The translations under genes were made by a program, and so were the position numbers. A stretch of DNA of 24,783 nucleotides from a virus, in IMG/VR virus record IMGVR_UViG_3300006641_001985, positions 1-24,783 of that record; one strand, given 5' to 3'. The number at the start of each line of letters is the position of its first letter. Positions within the stretch are counted from its first letter, which is position 1. A model generated the notes under the pieces. It ran no database searches. It was given only the letters and a program-made list of their open reading frames with translations, and had not been told where the DNA came from. Of this stretch, positions 20-9,682 are shown piece after piece.

Positions 20-673
20 CTAAACCTCCACGCACACGGCCTTTTGTGGCACTTTTGCCCTGTTTTTGCGATGTGGCATCCCGCGCGACGTCGGACGAAG
101 CGGAACGCCTCGGTCGTCGAAGGCGCCCGTCCACTCCGCTGGTGTGTCCCGTTGGACAACCCGACGGGTCCGACCCTGCCCGACGACGGTCGGCACCTTC
201 AAGTGTACTCGAGCGCAATACTTCAGCATGTGGTCGCGCAGTTTCGCGCTGATTGACCTGCGGTACGTGATCCCCAGCTCAGCGCAGATCTCGCGCGAGG
301 ACGCGCCCTGAGAGCGCATCCTGTAGATCGTCTCGCCCCAGTTTGAGCAGCGCCAGCGGGACGCCGCCCACCGGGTTTTCAGCCCTGCCCGCCTCATGAG
401 CACGCCCATCCGCTCGCGCGTAATGCCCAGACTGTCTGCGGCCTGTTGCGGGTGCTGGCCTGCCAGCATCGCCTCCCACGCCGCCTCCAGCTGCGAGCGT
501 CCGATCTGGCGCGCTTCTGGCCTGCCGATGAACAAGCCACGCTTCCACGCCGCGATGTAGAGCTGGCTCCACGTCATGCCTTGAGACGCGGCCACCTGGT
601 CGCGGTCCTCTCCAGCCTGGATGCGTGCTGCTGCGTCTCGGATCTGCTGATTCGTCCACTTTCTCGCCGGCAT
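20..673 (-). CDS. Protein with three HTH-like segments, probable DNA-binding protein
   Basis: This 217-aa protein begins at an ATG preceded by GGGAGG. Three segments look like helix-turn-helix units, at about residues 7-47, 60-98 and 113-150. The second and third each carry an LGIT turn (residues 82-85 and 133-136) followed by an arginine-rich recognition-like helix. The C-terminal 50 residues are strongly basic with no recognisable fold. I do not recognise a named family. It is the last gene of the early minus-strand block in this window and lies directly downstream of the candidate origin. In a circular or permuted phage map the next genes outside the window would lead towards the packaging and head genes, so a late-gene regulator or a small-terminase-like role are the main alternatives. 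DNA binding is inferred from the HTH-like pattern only. Confidence 0.75.
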   Translation of the reverse strand: MPARKWTNQQIRDAAARIQAGEDRDQVAASQGMTWSQLYIAAWKRGLFIGRPEARQIGRSQLEAAWEAMLAGQHPQQAADSLGITRERMGVLMRRAGLKTRWAASRWRCSNWGETIYRMRSQGASSREICAELGITYRRSISAKLRDHMLKYCARVHLKVPTVVGQGRTRRVVQRDTPAEWTGAFDDRGVPLRPTSRGMPHRKNRAKVPQKAVCVEV

Positions 674-1022
674 GATGCCTCCCTTGGTCTAGTGCTGTCC
701 ATGTGGACGCCTTGACATGTCAAGCTGTCCAGAGCTGAAACGCCGTTCTGGCCGGCGTCGTCGGTGGCCATGGACGGCTTGGACGGCTTTCCACCCTCTT
801 TCCAACTTCCCTCTCTCTCTTTCTTCTTCTTCTTCTTCTTGGAAAAAAGGTGTCCAAGCTGTCCATGAGAGAGAAGTCAACGTTCTTCCTAGGTAATTCC
901 ATGGACAGAGCTGTCCATGGAGCTGTCCATGAGCCGTCCAAGCCGTCCATGATGTATCGCTGACGCGCGCGGCGAAGCACCCGAGACGCCGAGACGTGTC
1001 GGATGTATCGGCATGTCTCACG
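674..1022. other. Gene-free region with GTCCA iteron-like cluster; candidate replication origin
   Basis: No convincing gene lies in this 349-bp stretch. It holds 12 copies of the pentamer GTCCA or its complement TGGAC: forward at 697, 727, 852, 861, 913, 925, 936 and 945, reverse at 704, 771, 780 and 902. Many are extended to GCYGTCCAWG, and several sit 9-12 bp apart. An unbroken 35-nt pyrimidine tract lies at 806-840, followed by GGAAAAAAGG. A second direct repeat, GATGTATCG, occurs at 951-959 and 1002-1010. Repeated short sites, a strand-asymmetric tract and the adjacent VapE-like replication ATPase gene together suggest a replication origin. Function is inferred. Reading frames through the repeats give low-complexity peptides rich in WTA or MDGLDG and are not believable genes. 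Confidence 0.55.
711..724. promoter_or_regulatory. 14-bp perfect palindrome
   Basis: CTTGACATGTCAAG is a perfect inverted repeat with no spacer, 38 bp upstream of the three-HTH gene start at 673 and inside the candidate origin. It could be a protein binding site. It shares TGACA/TGTCA half-sites with the palindrome on the major capsid promoter (24754-24766), though the half-site spacing differs. Confidence 0.4.
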
Positions 1023-2276
1023 TCATCCGGTCTTGCGGCGGTACCCTCGGACCCACTTGCCGTTGCGGTTGACCTTGCCGGGCTCATGCGTCCCCAGCTT
1101 GTTGACCAGGGCGCTCAGGCGCCCGGCTTCCGCCATGCCCGGCGGCTTGTTCAGCTCGGCAGAGTCCCAGAACTCCCGCGTCGTGAAGTCCACGCGCGCG
1201 TCCGACCAGACCACTAGGTGCTGGAGCATCGGATCCGTCAGCTCGTAGGTCTCGGCGCGCACGGCGCGCTCCTCCTCGAGTTCCCGGTCAAGGTGCCACT
1301 TCTCACCCGCATAGTACGCGTCTCTAGCCTCGGCCCACAGTTGCTCGATCACGGCTTCCAGCCCGACGACGTCGCATTGCCCGACGGGCACGATCCACCA
1401 GCGGCGCGACCCGGTGCTGTCCTGGAGGAACTGGAGATCGTTCGTCGTGCCGGCGAATACGCAGCATCGCGGCGTGTCGACCACGTTGCGCCCGTAGGCT
1501 GGACGGTAGCTGTCCGTCTGGCTGGATACGAACGCCTTGAGCGTCTGGGCTTCCGCGCGTCTCATGCTGTCCAGCTCGGCCAACTCGTAGATCCACGCTC
1601 CGCGCAGGCTGTCGAACCGGTCCTTGGAGCTAAGATCAAGCGGCGTGTCGCGGTACCATTCACGCCCAAGCACGGCGATCGTCGTCGACTTTCCGCAGCC
1701 TTGGCGGCCCTGGAGAATCAGCACCGCGTCGGCCTTGGCGCCTGGCTCGTATGCCCGCGCGATTGCCTGGATCATCCACCGGCGCGCCATCTGCGCGACC
1801 AACGGGTCAGGCTCGGCCCCCAGGTAGTCAGCGGCCCACGTCGCCAGCCGCGGCACCCGGTCCCACTCCAGTTCACCCAACCATTCGCGCACGGGATGGC
1901 GGACGTCCTTACGGGCCTTCCAAAGTAGCGCCTCATGGATGATCGTCGTCGGTGCGCTCAGCCCGTAGGTGCGGTGCATCCTCAGGCCGATCTCGGCCTC
2001 GTCATGATCCTCGATCACAGCCCCGGCTACCTTGTCATCCCATCGCGCACGCTGGTGCAGCTCGTCCCAGTAGACGCGCCGGCTCCAATAGGGGTCACGC
2101 TCGAGAATGATCTGCACGTTATCCCGGTGTCCTCGCGGCTTGCCCTCGGCTTTCAGCGCCCCGGTCTTTGCGTCAAAGGTGTCCGGCGTCCGGTCCAGCG
2201 CTTCCCACGTCGCCTCGTCGCGGCGCCACGGCATGAGCTGCACGCCCGCCATCTCGATCAGCTCTGCGTCGGTCAT
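1023..2276 (-). CDS. VapE-family (virulence-associated E / SF3-like) replication ATPase
   Basis: This 417-aa protein has the hallmarks of the phage VapE family, an AAA-type ATPase that usually works with a primase at phage origins. A Walker A motif, GRQGCGKS, lies at about residues 190-197. A Walker B-like strand, AWIYELAELD, is at about 227-236, a sensor-1 segment FAGTTND at 274-280 and an arginine-finger-like DSTGSRRWW at 287-294. The first 180 residues match the usual N-terminal region (REWLGELEWD near 130-139). I chose the ATG at 2276 because it overlaps the preceding stop as ATGA and has GAAGGAGAAG just upstream; a longer reading frame exists but lacks these signals. PrimPol, encoded in the same run of genes, is its likely partner. 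The probable role is origin opening or helicase activity. Confidence 0.88.
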   Translation of the reverse strand: MTDAELIEMAGVQLMPWRRDEATWEALDRTPDTFDAKTGALKAEGKPRGHRDNVQIILERDPYWSRRVYWDELHQRARWDDKVAGAVIEDHDEAEIGLRMHRTYGLSAPTTIIHEALLWKARKDVRHPVREWLGELEWDRVPRLATWAADYLGAEPDPLVAQMARRWMIQAIARAYEPGAKADAVLILQGRQGCGKSTTIAVLGREWYRDTPLDLSSKDRFDSLRGAWIYELAELDSMRRAEAQTLKAFVSSQTDSYRPAYGRNVVDTPRCCVFAGTTNDLQFLQDSTGSRRWWIVPVGQCDVVGLEAVIEQLWAEARDAYYAGEKWHLDRELEEERAVRAETYELTDPMLQHLVVWSDARVDFTTREFWDSAELNKPPGMAEAGRLSALVNKLGTHEPGKVNRNGKWVRGYRRKTG

Positions 2277-3080: not shown

Positions 3081-3283
3081 TGTCCCTCCTGGTTGTGATG
3101 CAGTCCCATGTCGACGTCATGTGCCAAGCGGTAGCCGTCCGCCCCCAGCTCGGGCGCTTTGGCGTCCAAATAGCGCACGATCGCTGCGTGCTCTCGCTGC
3201 GCGCCTCGTTTCTCCGCTTTTGCCAATTCGACCTGCAACTGCTCGGTGAAAATCGTCCAGATGCGGTCTAGTGCGTCGGTCAT
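3077..3283 (-). CDS. Small hypothetical helical protein
   Basis: This 68-aa protein starts at the ATG at 3283, chosen because it overlaps the PrimPol stop as ATGA and has GGAGG 5 bp upstream. It is rich in alpha-helix-forming residues (TEQLQVELAKAEKRGAQREH) and ends in a histidine-containing tail. No family is recognised. It is coupled to PrimPol upstream and to the 83-aa gene downstream. Confidence 0.72.
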   Translation of the reverse strand: MTDALDRIWTIFTEQLQVELAKAEKRGAQREHAAIVRYLDAKAPELGADGYRLAHDVDMGLHHNQEGQ

Positions 3284-4125
3284 CCCATCCTCCACAGCAT
3301 GTGAAGCCCACCGACCCATCCGCAAGAGTTGCGGTGATGGCAGACCGCTGGGCCTTCGTCCAAGTAGAACCAGACCTCGCGGTCGCCGCAGGACGGGCAT
3401 TTCAGATCGTCAATGTACGGGCGTGCCGCCTGCCGGAGCGTCCCGCCAAGCCGCGTGCCGACTTGGGAGCGCATGTCCGGGTCTCCGTCCAGCCTGTCTC
3501 TCACATGGCGCAGTGCCTCGCGCTCCGTGACTTGCCATGCCGGCGCGCTCGTGACCTTGCGGCGCTCGATCTTGGGCGGATCGACCATTTCCAGCAGCCA
3601 GAGCGGCGCGTTCAGGATTGGCGCGTCCATCGCCCCGAACCATTCGTACCGCGCACCGGAGCGGTGACGGGTCGGAGGAGCAATGACGTACCCACCATCA
3701 GCGCGTACATCCACGCCAGGCACAAGGCCCTGACGGTTCCTGAGATTGCGCCCGACCGGCCAGCGGAACCATACGTGAACTCCTCGTCCGGTTCGTACTG
3801 CGCGCGTAATGACCTCTCCATGCTGCTGCTCCTGTGAGGCGTACCAGCTGATCGCCTCGTCGGTGTCCAGATCCAGTACCCACAGGTTCGACCCCGGCCC
3901 GGTTGCGATGCCGATCCCGGCGTTGGGCCAGCGGCGCCACCACGCGTGAATGACCTCGAGCTGGTTCGACGCCTCGCGCTGCCATGCTCCAACCCGCGGG
4001 TGCTTCCCTCTGGCCTTCTCGCCGCACGCCTCCCCGGCTGGACAGGCGCACCGCGTACCCGTCCACTCCCAGAGCGGGTGAACTCGGAACCCAGCGTCCC
4101 CCAGCTCCAGAGCGGCGCGCATCAT
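3280..4125 (-). CDS. Bifunctional primase/polymerase (PrimPol-type) with C-terminal zinc ribbon
   Basis: This 281-aa protein matches the archaeo-eukaryotic-type primase/polymerase domain of phages and plasmids. The start fits the family (AALELGDAGFRVHPLW). The metal-binding LDLDTD lies at about residues 84-89, the nucleotide-binding TGRGVHVWF at 112-120, and the conserved DVRADGGYVIAPP at 139-151. The C-terminal 40 residues have CPSCG (243-247) and a second pair in VCHHRNSCGW (C262, C268), a zinc ribbon of the sort that helps primases recognise template DNA. The ATG at 4125 overlaps the BRCT gene stop as TGATG. No helicase domain is fused, so the separate VapE protein is the likely partner. 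It would make primers, and perhaps extend DNA, at the phage origin. Confidence 0.88.
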   Translation of the reverse strand: MMRAALELGDAGFRVHPLWEWTGTRCACPAGEACGEKARGKHPRVGAWQREASNQLEVIHAWWRRWPNAGIGIATGPGSNLWVLDLDTDEAISWYASQEQQHGEVITRAVRTGRGVHVWFRWPVGRNLRNRQGLVPGVDVRADGGYVIAPPTRHRSGARYEWFGAMDAPILNAPLWLLEMVDPPKIERRKVTSAPAWQVTEREALRHVRDRLDGDPDMRSQVGTRLGGTLRQAARPYIDDLKCPSCGDREVWFYLDEGPAVCHHRNSCGWVGGLHMLWRMG

Positions 4126-4439
4126 CAGACGGCTTCCAGATGCCCGGTCGCCATGACGTGCCGGATCATGCCAGCGGTAGCGGCATCCATGTCGGCCACG
4201 ATTGCGCCACGCTGGAAGCGCACCAGCTCGCAGAACTGCTGCTCGGTGATGACCTGGATCCCCCACGCGCGGGCCTGCATCTCGGCGCTACCTGCGTTCG
4301 GACCCGCAACCAGGTAGTGAACCTCGCGCGTGACCTTGCGAGACACGATAGCGCCTGCGGCCTCCGCGGCCTGCCAAGCCGGGTGACGTCCCATCGCAAG
4401 ATCGCCGGTGAACGCGATCACCTTGCCGGCAGCGCTCAC
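4125..4439 (-). CDS. BRCT-domain protein
   Basis: This 104-aa protein is almost entirely one BRCT domain like that at the C-terminus of bacterial NAD-dependent DNA ligases. GKVIAFTGDL is at about residues 5-14, the AAEAAGAIV helix and strand follow, then EVHYLVAGPNAGSAEMQ, and WGIQVITEQQFCELV leads into the last helix. I chose the GTG at 4439 because GGAGGG lies just upstream and GTGA overlaps the stop of the 43-aa membrane protein; the domain begins within five residues of it. BRCT domains bind DNA ends, nicks or phosphorylated partners. No ligase core is fused. Placed directly before PrimPol, it may tether the phage replisome to DNA or to a partner protein. A stand-alone BRCT in a phage replication operon is unusual. 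Confidence 0.85.
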   Translation of the reverse strand: MSAAGKVIAFTGDLAMGRHPAWQAAEAAGAIVSRKVTREVHYLVAGPNAGSAEMQARAWGIQVITEQQFCELVRFQRGAIVADMDAATAGMIRHVMATGHLEAV

Positions 4440-4567
4440 ATGCCCTCCAGAATGCCGGTCGCGATGACCGCACATGCAAAAAGGACAATTGCGATCCATC
4501 CATGCGCTAGACGTTCGCCATCCTCGGTGGCCTGTTCGCGGGTGAACCGATCTTCGTACTGGCTCAT
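4436..4567 (-). CDS. 43-aa single-span membrane protein
   Basis: This short gene encodes 43 residues: a charged start (MSQYEDRFTREQATEDGERL) and then a hydrophobic stretch, WIAIVLFACAVIATGIL, at about residues 24-40. The ATG at 4567 has GGAGGAT upstream. The TGA at 4438-4436 is overlapped by the GTG of the BRCT gene (GTGA), which supports real translation of both. The many acidic residues before the segment suggest a single transmembrane helix, orientation unknown. No family is recognised. Its first five residues and its ribosome-binding region are identical to those of the 66-aa gene upstream. Roles in superinfection exclusion or in anchoring replication to the membrane are possible but untested. 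Confidence 0.72.
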   Translation of the reverse strand: MSQYEDRFTREQATEDGERLAHGWIAIVLFACAVIATGILEGM

Positions 4568-4577
4568 GGGATCCTCC
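4553..4577. repeat. 25-bp direct repeat, copy 1 (start cassette of the 43-aa gene)
   Basis: This 25-bp sequence is identical to 4812-4836. It spans the ribosome-binding site GGAGGATCC, the ATG and the codons for MSQYE. Identity stops abruptly on both sides. Confidence 0.9.
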
Positions 4578-4625
4578 TGTGCTCGTCATCTAGGCTGAAT
4601 GGTTTGAAGTGCCTGAAATGCAGAC

Positions 4626-4826
4626 CTAGAGTGGCCGCAGCACCACCAGCCCGCGCGCGTCAACATAGGTGCCATCCACGCGAGCGGTGATCTCCGCGCG
4701 CTCCCCGAACACGTCCACGCACATGCTCTGAAATGCCTCTAGCGACGAGAACGTCTCAACATCGGGACAGTATGTGTCGCTCACGCAGCTGTAGGCGGTG
4801 GTGTCGCTGGATTCGTACTGGCTCAT
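4626..4826 (-). CDS. Hypothetical 66-aa acidic protein, first gene of the PrimPol operon
   Basis: The ATG at 4826 follows GGAGGATCCC, about 33 nt downstream of the expected start of transcription from the promoter at 4866-4895. The protein is acidic with three cysteines (CVSD, YCPD, MCVD), and its C-terminal half alternates strands (AEITARVDGTYVDARGLVVLRP). No family is recognised. As the first gene under an operator-like site it may be an early-expressed accessory protein. The first five residues match those of the next gene, the 43-aa membrane protein. Confidence 0.75.
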   Translation of the reverse strand: MSQYESSDTTAYSCVSDTYCPDVETFSSLEAFQSMCVDVFGERAEITARVDGTYVDARGLVVLRPL

Positions 4827-4836
4827 GGGATCCTCC
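4812..4836. repeat. 25-bp direct repeat, copy 2 (start cassette of the 66-aa gene)
   Basis: Identical to 4553-4577, 259 bp away, covering the ribosome-binding site, start codon and MSQYE codons. The two downstream proteins share nothing else, which suggests a duplicated start cassette or recombination within it. Confidence 0.9.
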
Positions 4837-4865
4837 GGTGTGGGCCACCTCGGCCCGACATCTTG

Positions 4866-4895
4866 AGCATACCCCTACCCGTTGCGAACGTGCAA
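4866..4895 (-). promoter_or_regulatory. Sigma70-like promoter of the PrimPol operon
   Basis: On the minus strand TTGCAC (4895-4890) and TATGCT (4871-4866) are separated by 18 bp, and the first gene starts about 40 bp further on. The -35 element lies inside operator copy O3 (4882-4897), so a bound repressor would block it. Confidence 0.6.
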
Positions 4896-4897
4896 CC
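4882..4897. promoter_or_regulatory. Operator-like site O3
   Basis: TTGCGAACGTGCAACC matches the two sites at 6014-6029 and 6039-6054 with consensus KTGCRRACVYGCAACC. Its core has TTGC-N6-GCAA partial dyad symmetry, as expected of a dimeric HTH repressor site. It overlaps the -35 box of the PrimPol operon promoter. Confidence 0.6.
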
Positions 4898-4899
4898 CT

Positions 4900-5361
4900 C
4901 TAGTGCACATTTCCTGAAGACGTGGGCCAGCCGTGCGCCTCTGGCGTCCACGTCTCGACCGTCACCAGCACGCCGGGGACGTCACCGACCGCGTGGATCT
5001 GACGGGTGACGTGCAGCTCGCAGACGAACCGGTCATCCTCAAGAAGTCCGGCCTCGACCATCGCGTCCATGATGATCTTCGCCAGGTTGTCGACGTCGGG
5101 CTTCACCGGCGTAGGGTGCGCTATGCCCATCTTCCACGCGGCAGGCTGGATCCACGTTGGGCGCGACTTGGGGCGCGGCATGTAGACGTCAAGCGCCAGC
5201 GCCACTAGACCCGTCCAGCATTCTCCGGCAGACTGCGCGCGGAACTGGACGACGGCAGCATCCACCCACGCGCGATGCTCTGGCGGCATGTACGCGCGGC
5301 CTCGTCCTAGACGTGGACGAGAGGCGCCACGCGGCACTAGCTCTAGGCTGTACGCTTTCAC
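4900..5361 (-). CDS. rusA: RusA-family Holliday junction resolvase
   Basis: This 153-aa protein fits the RusA endonuclease family, which dimerises and cuts four-way DNA junctions during phage recombination and replication. The characteristic KPDVDNLAKIIMDAM lies at about residues 87-101. It is followed by GLLEDDRFV at 105-113, giving the paired aspartates that bind metal in RusA. The N-terminal PRPKSRP (62-68) also fits. The GTG start at 5361 forms GTGA with the stop of the 71-aa gene and has AGGTGG upstream. It is the last gene of the repressor-led run before the second promoter. With the ERF annealing protein across the divergent promoter, it supports a phage recombination pathway. Confidence 0.88.
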   Translation of the reverse strand: MKAYSLELVPRGASRPRLGRGRAYMPPEHRAWVDAAVVQFRAQSAGECWTGLVALALDVYMPRPKSRPTWIQPAAWKMGIAHPTPVKPDVDNLAKIIMDAMVEAGLLEDDRFVCELHVTRQIHAVGDVPGVLVTVETWTPEAHGWPTSSGNVH

Positions 5362-7865: not shown

Positions 7866-7876
7866 GCACGGTGCAT
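7862..7876 (-). promoter_or_regulatory. Mini leader ORF and palindrome before the 150-aa gene
   Basis: On the minus strand ATG CAC CGT GCA TGA encodes M-H-R-A and ends in ATGA overlap with the 150-aa start. GGAGG lies 7 nt upstream, inside the descending arm of the terminator hairpin. ATGCAC-C-GTGCAT is also a 13-nt palindrome and might be a binding site instead. Confidence 0.35.
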
Positions 7877-7914
7877 AACAAAGCCTCCGGCCAGGCGGAA
7901 CCCGACCGGAGGCT
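7877..7914 (-). terminator. Intrinsic terminator of the late operon
   Basis: A 9-bp perfect stem, AGCCTCCGG/CCGGAGGCT (arms 7914-7906 and 7890-7882 on the minus strand), encloses a 15-nt loop and is followed by TTTGTT. It lies 17 bp past the stop of the tail fibre gene. Confidence 0.75.
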
Positions 7915-7930
7915 CGTCATTCAGTCGTGC

Positions 7931-9640
7931 TTACGCGCGACCGTAGGTGATGCCGACGAAGTCGTCCGCAGCCAGCTGGAACTCGAACACGACCTGGTCG
8001 ACGCCGGCAGGGCCGGTGCCGTTGCCGAACGTGAAGTCGTTCCCGGAGCCCGGCAACTGGAGCCTGCCATTGAGGTAGACCATCAGCGAGCCGAACGTGC
8101 TGTCCACATCGCCGTGGGCCAGGTTGAACGTGGTCTGGTTGGCGCTCGCCAGGAACGTCATGCCATGGTCGGACTTTCCGATTGCGGCAGTGACTTCTGG
8201 CGCGAGCTTCGCAAGGGTGACGGCGCCGTCCCCGATCTTTGCGGTCGTGACCGACGCGCCCTTCAGCTTGAGGCCGGTAGCAGTCGCCTCGATGGCATCG
8301 GCAGCGTCCACCAGCACGGACAGACCGTCACCAGTGGCCGCGAGAGCCGGGTTGGTGGCGTTCAGCTTGAGGCTAACGAAGCCGGAGCCGTCCACCTGGA
8401 CGCCGTTAGCGGTGCTGACGAAGATCCCGTTGGCATCCGCGCCCACGCCGCCGTTGAGCTTACGAGCCACACCGAGACCGGCGCTACCACGAGACAAACC
8501 GGAGGTGGCTTGCAGCTTGATCCTAAGCGCATCGGATGCGATCTCAATGCCACCAGAGGTATCGCACGCCACGTTCAGCGTGTTCCCGGTTTTTACGAGC
8601 GCATCGCCTGCCGTGATCTGCCCGAGGCCGGTGAACTGCGTGAACTCAAGCACCGTTGTTCCCAACGTGATCGCGCTGTCGTTGGTGCAGATCCAGCCGC
8701 TGTCCGCATACGTTCCCTCGCGGACGAATACGGCAGAGCCACGGATCTCGTTCGGAGCGTCGAAGTCGGGCGCGCGCGTCGAGCCCGAAACGCCGATCAC
8801 ATAGACACCAGAGTTGGCGCTCTGGCGGTAATACAGGATCCGGTCCCCTGCCTCGACGGTCACTCCACCGTAAGATCCGCCGGCGAGCATGGTCGTAGGG
8901 TCGATGCCAGTCGGCGGGAGATGGAGAGCGCGGACGCTTTCCTTCCAGTTGGCGCCCTGCGCGATGGCATCGACGTAGCCCTTCGTCACGACGTCGCTGT
9001 CCGCCGGGCTGGCGGCCATGCTCGTCTTGAGCTTGCCGGCGCTAAACGTCCACTCGGCGGTCAGATCCGCCTTGCCGGGCGTGACGGCGTTCGCGGCGAG
9101 CTTGTCGGTGGTGACGTTCGCGTCGATGATGGCCGACGTGCCGACGCTAGAGGATCCCAGCTTGCCGGAGGTCACGGCGCCCGCGCCGAGCTTGTCGGCA
9201 GTCACAGCACCCGTGCCGATCTTCGCCTCGAGGACAGCACCATCGGCCAGCTTGGCGGACTCGACCGCACCGGCTCCGATCTTGCCAGCAGTCACCGCGC
9301 CGTCGCCAATCTTGGCCTCGACGACCGAACCGGCTCCGAGCTTGTCAGCAGTGACAGCACCGGTCCCGAGCTTCGCCTCGACCACCGCACCGTCTGCAAT
9401 CTTGGCAGTCTCAACCGCACCCGCGCCGATCTTGGCTGCGGTAACCGCACCGGAAGCGAGCTTGGCCTCGGTGACGGCGTTGCTGGCCAGCTTCGCCTCG
9501 GTAGCCGCGCCATCCGCGATCTTCCCGGTAGTGACGTTGAGATCCTTGATCTTTGCAGTCTCGACCGCGTCGGCGGCCAACAGGCTGGCGATGATCGAAC
9601 CGGAAGCGAGGTCAGACGAGCGAATAAACGTACGTGCCAT
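7931..9640 (-). CDS. Tail fibre protein with decapeptide repeats
   Basis: This 569-aa virion protein starts at ATG behind CTAGGAGGGC. Residues about 25-194 are 17 decapeptide repeats of the form AVxxAKxxxG, with the lysine at every tenth position from 30 to 190. Such repeats are expected to form a fibrous trimeric shaft. Residues around 210-240 carry SDVVTKGYVDAIAQGANWK, the VTKxYVD segment common in phage tail fibres. A beta-rich middle and one more short repeat (TTAKIGDGAVTLAKL) lead to a C-terminal beta domain containing YLNGRLQL. It ends the late operon, just before the terminator. The role in host recognition is inferred from family resemblance; no enzymatic motif is seen. Confidence 0.82.
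   Translation of the reverse strand: MARTFIRSSDLASGSIIASLLAADAVETAKIKDLNVTTGKIADGAATEAKLASNAVTEAKLASGAVTAAKIGAGAVETAKIADGAVVEAKLGTGAVTADKLGAGSVVEAKIGDGAVTAGKIGAGAVESAKLADGAVLEAKIGTGAVTADKLGAGAVTSGKLGSSSVGTSAIIDANVTTDKLAANAVTPGKADLTAEWTFSAGKLKTSMAASPADSDVVTKGYVDAIAQGANWKESVRALHLPPTGIDPTTMLAGGSYGGVTVEAGDRILYYRQSANSGVYVIGVSGSTRAPDFDAPNEIRGSAVFVREGTYADSGWICTNDSAITLGTTVLEFTQFTGLGQITAGDALVKTGNTLNVACDTSGGIEIASDALRIKLQATSGLSRGSAGLGVARKLNGGVGADANGIFVSTANGVQVDGSGFVSLKLNATNPALAATGDGLSVLVDAADAIEATATGLKLKGASVTTAKIGDGAVTLAKLAPEVTAAIGKSDHGMTFLASANQTTFNLAHGDVDSTFGSLMVYLNGRLQLPGSGNDFTFGNGTGPAGVDQVVFEFQLAADDFVGITYGRA
9059..9568 (-). repeat. Array of 17 degenerate 30-bp coding repeats
   Basis: Inside the fibre gene, 17 units of 10 codons in constant register encode the decapeptide shaft. 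Units such as AVTADKLGAG occur twice. The array also produces long spurious open frames on the opposite strand. Confidence 0.85.
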
Positions 9641-9682
9641 GAGATGCCCTCCTAGTAGGCATCGTCACGGTACGGCAGGATG

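Follow-up and report, generated by a model that had tools for sequence, protein, structure and literature searches.

Introduction

In the E. coli PICI EcCICFT073, the replication origin lies 3' of pri-rep, and its function was tested with plasmids, whose replication it drives (PMC6092414). The C-terminal domains of SaPI Rep and of Cch2 bind iterons downstream; for the initiator helicase Cch2, these are short direct repeats that closely follow its gene (PMC7581432). Another arrangement is found in pRN1, where an essential stem-loop is located 3' of the replication gene; the authors of that study found no origin-type iterons in phage BIP-1 (PMC4234260).

Here, we analyzed a stretch of 24,783 nucleotides (positions 1 to 24,783 of the IMG/VR virus record IMGVR_UViG_3300006641_001985), which is called the window. 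The record, a linear virus contig of 24.8 kb, includes genes for capsid and tail, so it represents part of a phage and not a satellite island. Our comparison points with high confidence to positions 690-955 as the phage replication origin, of the iteron type known as PICI/SaPI 'rep-ori', which would be bound and opened by VapE.

Results

The array and its position

The original prediction described 12 copies of GTCCA or TGGAC within about 255 bp of the 674-1,022 gap, and the exact count is indeed 12, over a span of 697-949 (Table 1). With equal base frequencies, 0.5 copies per 255 bp are expected; outside the array there are 84 copies in 24.4 kb, or approximately 0.9 per 255 bp, and the maximum elsewhere in the window is 4 per 255 bp. 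The longer word AGCYGTCCATG, with one mismatch allowed, has nine matches in the window against 0.9 expected; eight of the nine lie inside the array, exact copies are found at 909 and 921, and none of 100 shuffles reached nine matches. The predicted tandem spacing of 9-12 bp also held, being 9 bp at 771/780, 852/861, and 936/945, and 12 bp at 913/925. In addition to what had been noticed earlier, 769-788 forms a perfect 20-bp inverted repeat with 932-951, 898-908 and 911-921 form a perfect 11-nt inverted repeat with arms 2 nt apart, and a further inverted repeat (704-717 with 718-731) is present among the outer far-side units. A search of Rfam with the array gave no match. In a scan of the collection, many viral contigs contained an exact copy of the 15-mer TGTCCAAGCTGTCCA, but their number was close to that expected by chance for the collection size, and few of them had a GTCCA cluster.

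As had been proposed, the array adjoins vapE: it is intergenic and immediately 3' of that gene, with no gene between, and 73 bp separate the last element from the stop codon.

Table 1. Features of the array and neighboring genes, in window coordinates (A and a', units in the two orientations).
Feature	Position	Strand	Details
Three-HTH protein gene	20-673	-	Weak HTH matches; starts at the array's end
GTCCA/TGGAC starts	697, 704, 727, 771, 780, 852, 861, 902, 913, 925, 936, 945		
Outer far-side units	695-731		727 = A, 704 = a', 697 = A
Inner tandem block, far side of tract	769-788		a' a'; TGGAC at 771, 780
Central low-GC region, candidate melting site	788-851		40.6% GC against 64.6% for the window
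Pyrimidine tract	806-840	+	35 nt; GA-rich on the vapE coding strand
Inner tandem block, vapE side of tract	850-868		A A; GTCCA at 852, 861
Single inverted unit	898-908		a'; arm of short hairpin, partner arm 911-921
Two more outer-block units	909-931		AGCTGTCCATGG AGCTGTCCATG; GTCCA at 913, 925
Outer tandem block, vapE side	930-951		A A, in vapE sense TGGACGGCT TGGACGGCT; GTCCA at 936, 945
VapE, SF3/AAA+ helicase	1023-2276	-	PF05272, E 1.3e-74; DUF5906, E 1e-8
PrimPol (AEP primase-polymerase)	3280-4200	-	PF09250, E 1.9e-35; separate gene in the module of vapE

The pyrimidine tract was predicted to be 35 nt long and is exactly so, while the next longest purine or pyrimidine run in the window is 12 nt and 200 shuffles produced runs of at most 29 nt. 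It is followed directly by GGAAAAAAGG (841-850). The lowest-GC 60-bp windows of the entire record fall within the central region, which is flanked by the two inner blocks.

Three other features of the window were observed. A phage gene with a BRCT domain (4125-4433, minus strand; PF00533, E 1.3e-5) is located between PrimPol and RusA; BRCT domains are more typical of ligases and repair proteins. The long protein encoded on the minus strand at 7931-9640, in which an AVTxAKIGAGAV-like motif recurs, is probably a tail fibre, and on the opposite strand a 594-codon reading frame is open at 7871-9655.

Conservation of the layout with changing words

The search for VapE relatives identified four contigs (L006-L009) at 53-55% identity, in which ~9-bp tandem units, a GA-rich tract, and the units again in inverted orientation follow straight after the vapE stop. 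In L010 and L011, whose VapE proteins are 35-41% identical, a matching arrangement 3' of vapE is built from the unrelated word CCTTAC. The words are therefore lineage-specific, and the arrangement is kept. The GA-rich tract is found at the equivalent place in L006, L008, L010, L011, and L294. No DNA-level relatives were found among named phages; named phages that carry the layout include Corynebacterium CL31 and IME1320_01, Marinobacter PS3, Synechococcus S-LBS1, and Bacteroides F2. The S-LBS1 array (L302, 34236-34641) lies at the extreme end of its record and is partly repeated approximately 255 bp apart, possibly because the genome is circular and its assembly overlap was left untrimmed. In the Acinetobacter phage Alexa (L297, 6028-6285), an ATGCACT array with a matching block order starts 279 nt beyond the stop codon of vapE. 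It overlaps with small ORFs whose annotation may be excessive.

The arrays of L007 and of L006/L008 can be aligned end to end, spacers and tract included, and approximately ten units are switched together between them, from GTCCACCC to GTCCGAC. Over their full length, the VapE proteins differ by approximately 11%, and residues 404, 411, and 414, in the predicted wing, are among the changes. Such a concerted switch is the trace expected of a change in binding specificity, although as a single case it proves nothing.

These relatives also bear on the reading of the array as a stem-loop origin of the kind proposed for pRN1 and related PrimPol-SF3 replicons, in which the structure would be recognized and not the words. 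The perfect 20-bp inverted repeat, the strong predicted single-strand folding of the array (z -6.2), and the position 3' of a replication gene, as in pRN1 (PMC4234260), agree with it. However, inverted iteron arrays necessarily fold, and the relatives retain tandem units at a spacing of 9 bp, for which a pure stem-loop would have no need, and switch them in concert; we regard this explanation as unlikely.

We extended the comparison to 88-89 vapE loci, de-duplicated from 178. The lag-9 repeat signal in the 350 nt 3' of vapE was 3.5 times that of the control (88 loci against 1987 control windows). Tandem pairs in both orientations were present in 16 of 88 regions compared with 18 of 3921 control windows (Fisher p 1e-18, a value to be taken loosely because the loci are related to one another) and in none of 2640 letter shuffles; eight of the 18 positive control windows were Pseudomonas-type loci with the array one small gene further along. 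When windows starting 0-1000 nt from the vapE stop were examined, inverted tandem arrays (~9-bp units, one mismatch) were found within 1.35 kb 3' of vapE in 59 of 89 loci, with a peak in the 0-500 nt bin (19% of windows, versus about 1% elsewhere). About one third of the loci had no array by this test, in some cases because the contig stops there.

Counting 6-mers alone in the region 3' of vapE had suggested that Pseudomonas-type loci are without an array, which was wrong, as their array lies further on, beyond a gene of approximately 370 nt (for example, L295 4170-4541).

In the sense of vapE, the block order is A A, a', A A(A), tract, a' a'(a'), A, a' a'(a'). The collapsed order was exact in 19 of 58 arrays, whereas orientation shuffles gave 3.4 on average and never more than 12; in CL31 and F2, the outer blocks are reversed. 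With TGGACRGCT taken as the forward unit, the window matches this layout at offsets A 73, 82, 93, and 105; a' 114; A 157 and 166; tract ~180-215; a' 236 and 245; A 291; a' ~313; and A 321. The GTCC word of the window is reversed relative to most relatives, and the fit requires TGGAC as the forward word.

The E. coli CFT073 island, equated with the published EcCICFT073 by strain, gene content, and location, has TCTACCT units in the gap after its primase gene at A 16 and 25; a' 70; A 93, 104, 113, and 123; a' 143 and 154; A 177; and a' 222 and 231. Its order is thus A A, a', A A A A, then a' a', A, a' a', and the window has the same block order with extra units in the outer blocks.

What follows the array varies among these phages, and this matters for the possibility that it is a terminase recognition (cos/pac) site. 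In L006, a 127-aa ORF and then the gene for the terminase large subunit follow within ~0.6 kb, and in S-LBS1 terS comes directly after the array. However, the array is still with vapE where the terminase is elsewhere: CL31, IME1320_01, and Bacteroides F1/F2 have a VRR-NUC or small gene and an SF2 helicase after it, with terL ~3-5 kb off, and in PS3 terL is 7 kb away. A packaging role is highly improbable because the array follows vapE and not the terminase, and the block order instead matches that of a validated origin.

VapE as the proposed initiator

The nearest solved structure to the window VapE is 7pds (sequence E 3e-44; fold TM 0.77), deposited as PriRep1 with dsDNA under the molecule name 'Similar to D. 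nodosus vapE'; the window protein is a homologue of this staphylococcal island helicase. The next fold matches were NrS-1 (6k9c), SaPI5 (7ola), and D5/E5-type helicases, which place VapE in the SaPI Rep / D5-like SF3 group of self-loading helicases, and DUF5906 is common to the window VapE and EcCICFT073 Pri-Rep. In the AF2 model (pLDDT 90), the C-terminal end consists of three helices and two strands in winged-helix order. This predicted winged helix (residues 349-417) recurs when the C-terminal domain is folded alone, and Foldseek with that domain alone gave weak winged-helix matches (best E 0.04, none below E 0.001). By analogy with SaPI Rep and Cch2, VapE may bind the 9-bp units via this C-terminal winged helix.

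The distance between words was correlated with that between VapE C-terminal domains when the core was controlled, although this partial correlation was small (0.175, p 0.016). A similar value (0.21) was obtained in the reverse direction, for the ATPase core with the C-terminal domain controlled. As the words track the ATPase core about as well as the C-terminal domain, the binding domain is not singled out.

The original prediction named two candidate binders, VapE and the three-HTH protein. VapE is the better candidate, and the other lacks support: the three-HTH protein probably does not bind the iterons, since in relatives the array adjoins other genes. The related idea that the array consists of transcription-factor operators, for example with the three-HTH protein controlling its own gene, which starts ~22 bp past the last unit (a unit overlapped by one promoter-like match), is very doubtful, since other genes take the place of the three-HTH gene in relatives, the HTH proteins of L007 are located elsewhere and are barely similar, and a dyad of 12 units on either side of a GA tract is seldom required for an operator. 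In L007, two adjoining multi-HTH genes (3953-5009) lie upstream of PrimPol, and small multi-HTH proteins are apparently common in its phage group.

Discussion

The proposal that iterons and an asymmetric tract beside VapE form an origin is supported by the layout, which is conserved 3' of vapE across divergent phages while its words change, and by the block-by-block match to the validated PICI origin of EcCICFT073 (PMC6092414). The origin reading is favored because the array is confined to the gap, the layout is conserved 3' of vapE, the order is that of EcCICFT073, and VapE is homologous to the island helicases. GC skew had been suggested as a check; as the window is a linear fragment, in which whole-genome skew is unreadable, seven complete phages with the array were used instead. 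An extremum of cumulative skew lay within 5% of the genome from the array in four of the seven, but its sign was mixed, with minima in S-LBS1 and CL31 and maxima in PS3 and Pae_U5; the other three had none within 5%. Skew thus supports the origin weakly, and the result is mixed and not decisive.

Based on the PICI/SaPI systems, origin firing might proceed as follows. VapE, made from the gene just upstream of the array, would act as a hexameric self-loading helicase whose C-terminal winged helix binds the ~9-bp units. The two opposed sets of units would load two helicase rings head to head, flanking the low-GC, GA-rich tract, which would melt between them. The rings may then open the DNA, and PrimPol may prime the exposed strands.

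Taken together, the PICI-type origin is probably not peculiar to satellites: tailed phages that replicate with a VapE-type helicase would generally have as their origin six blocks of ~9-bp units, arranged as a dyad about a melting tract, in hosts that range from Pseudomonas to Corynebacterium, Bacteroides, and cyanobacteria. Each lineage would change all its units in concert and so keep a private recognition word. The origin type itself is already known from PICI/SaPI, and its wide occurrence in ordinary tailed phages may be the part that specialists do not expect; we found no description of the layout 3' of vapE in phages in the open-licence literature, an absence that supports novelty only weakly. 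Although its name has long referred to virulence, VapE would gain a concrete job in ordinary phages, namely origin recognition and opening. Since the words differ between the close relatives L006/L008 and L007, these phages offer natural material on how a helicase binding domain and its sites change together, and the layout provides a simple way of predicting origins in many uncultured phages.

Among known origins, the DnaA-dependent and lambda-O types also have iterons beside the initiator gene or, as the lambda origin lies inside the lambda O gene, within it; however, their initiators belong to an unrelated family, and the array is without DnaA boxes (no TTWTNCACA, one mismatch allowed, in 674-1022). 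The pRN1-type origin is likewise an element 3' of a PrimPol-SF3 replication gene but consists of one ~100-bp stem-loop and not of 9-bp iterons. The putative SCCmec Cch2 origin resembles the window array in that a helicase has short direct repeats just 3' of its own gene, although only three 5-nt iterons, and no inverted double array, are reported there. The closest likeness is to the PICI/SaPI rep-ori (EcCICFT073, SaPIbov1, SaPI1, SaPI5). Unlike these, the window array lies in a tailed-phage fragment with capsid and tail genes, not in a satellite, and has another word, a separate PrimPol gene, and a GA/CT tract of 35 nt although the genome has 65% GC; like them, it is located directly 3' of a self-loading helicase gene, shows the EcCICFT073 block order, and has an initiator homologous to the staphylococcal island helicase 7pds.
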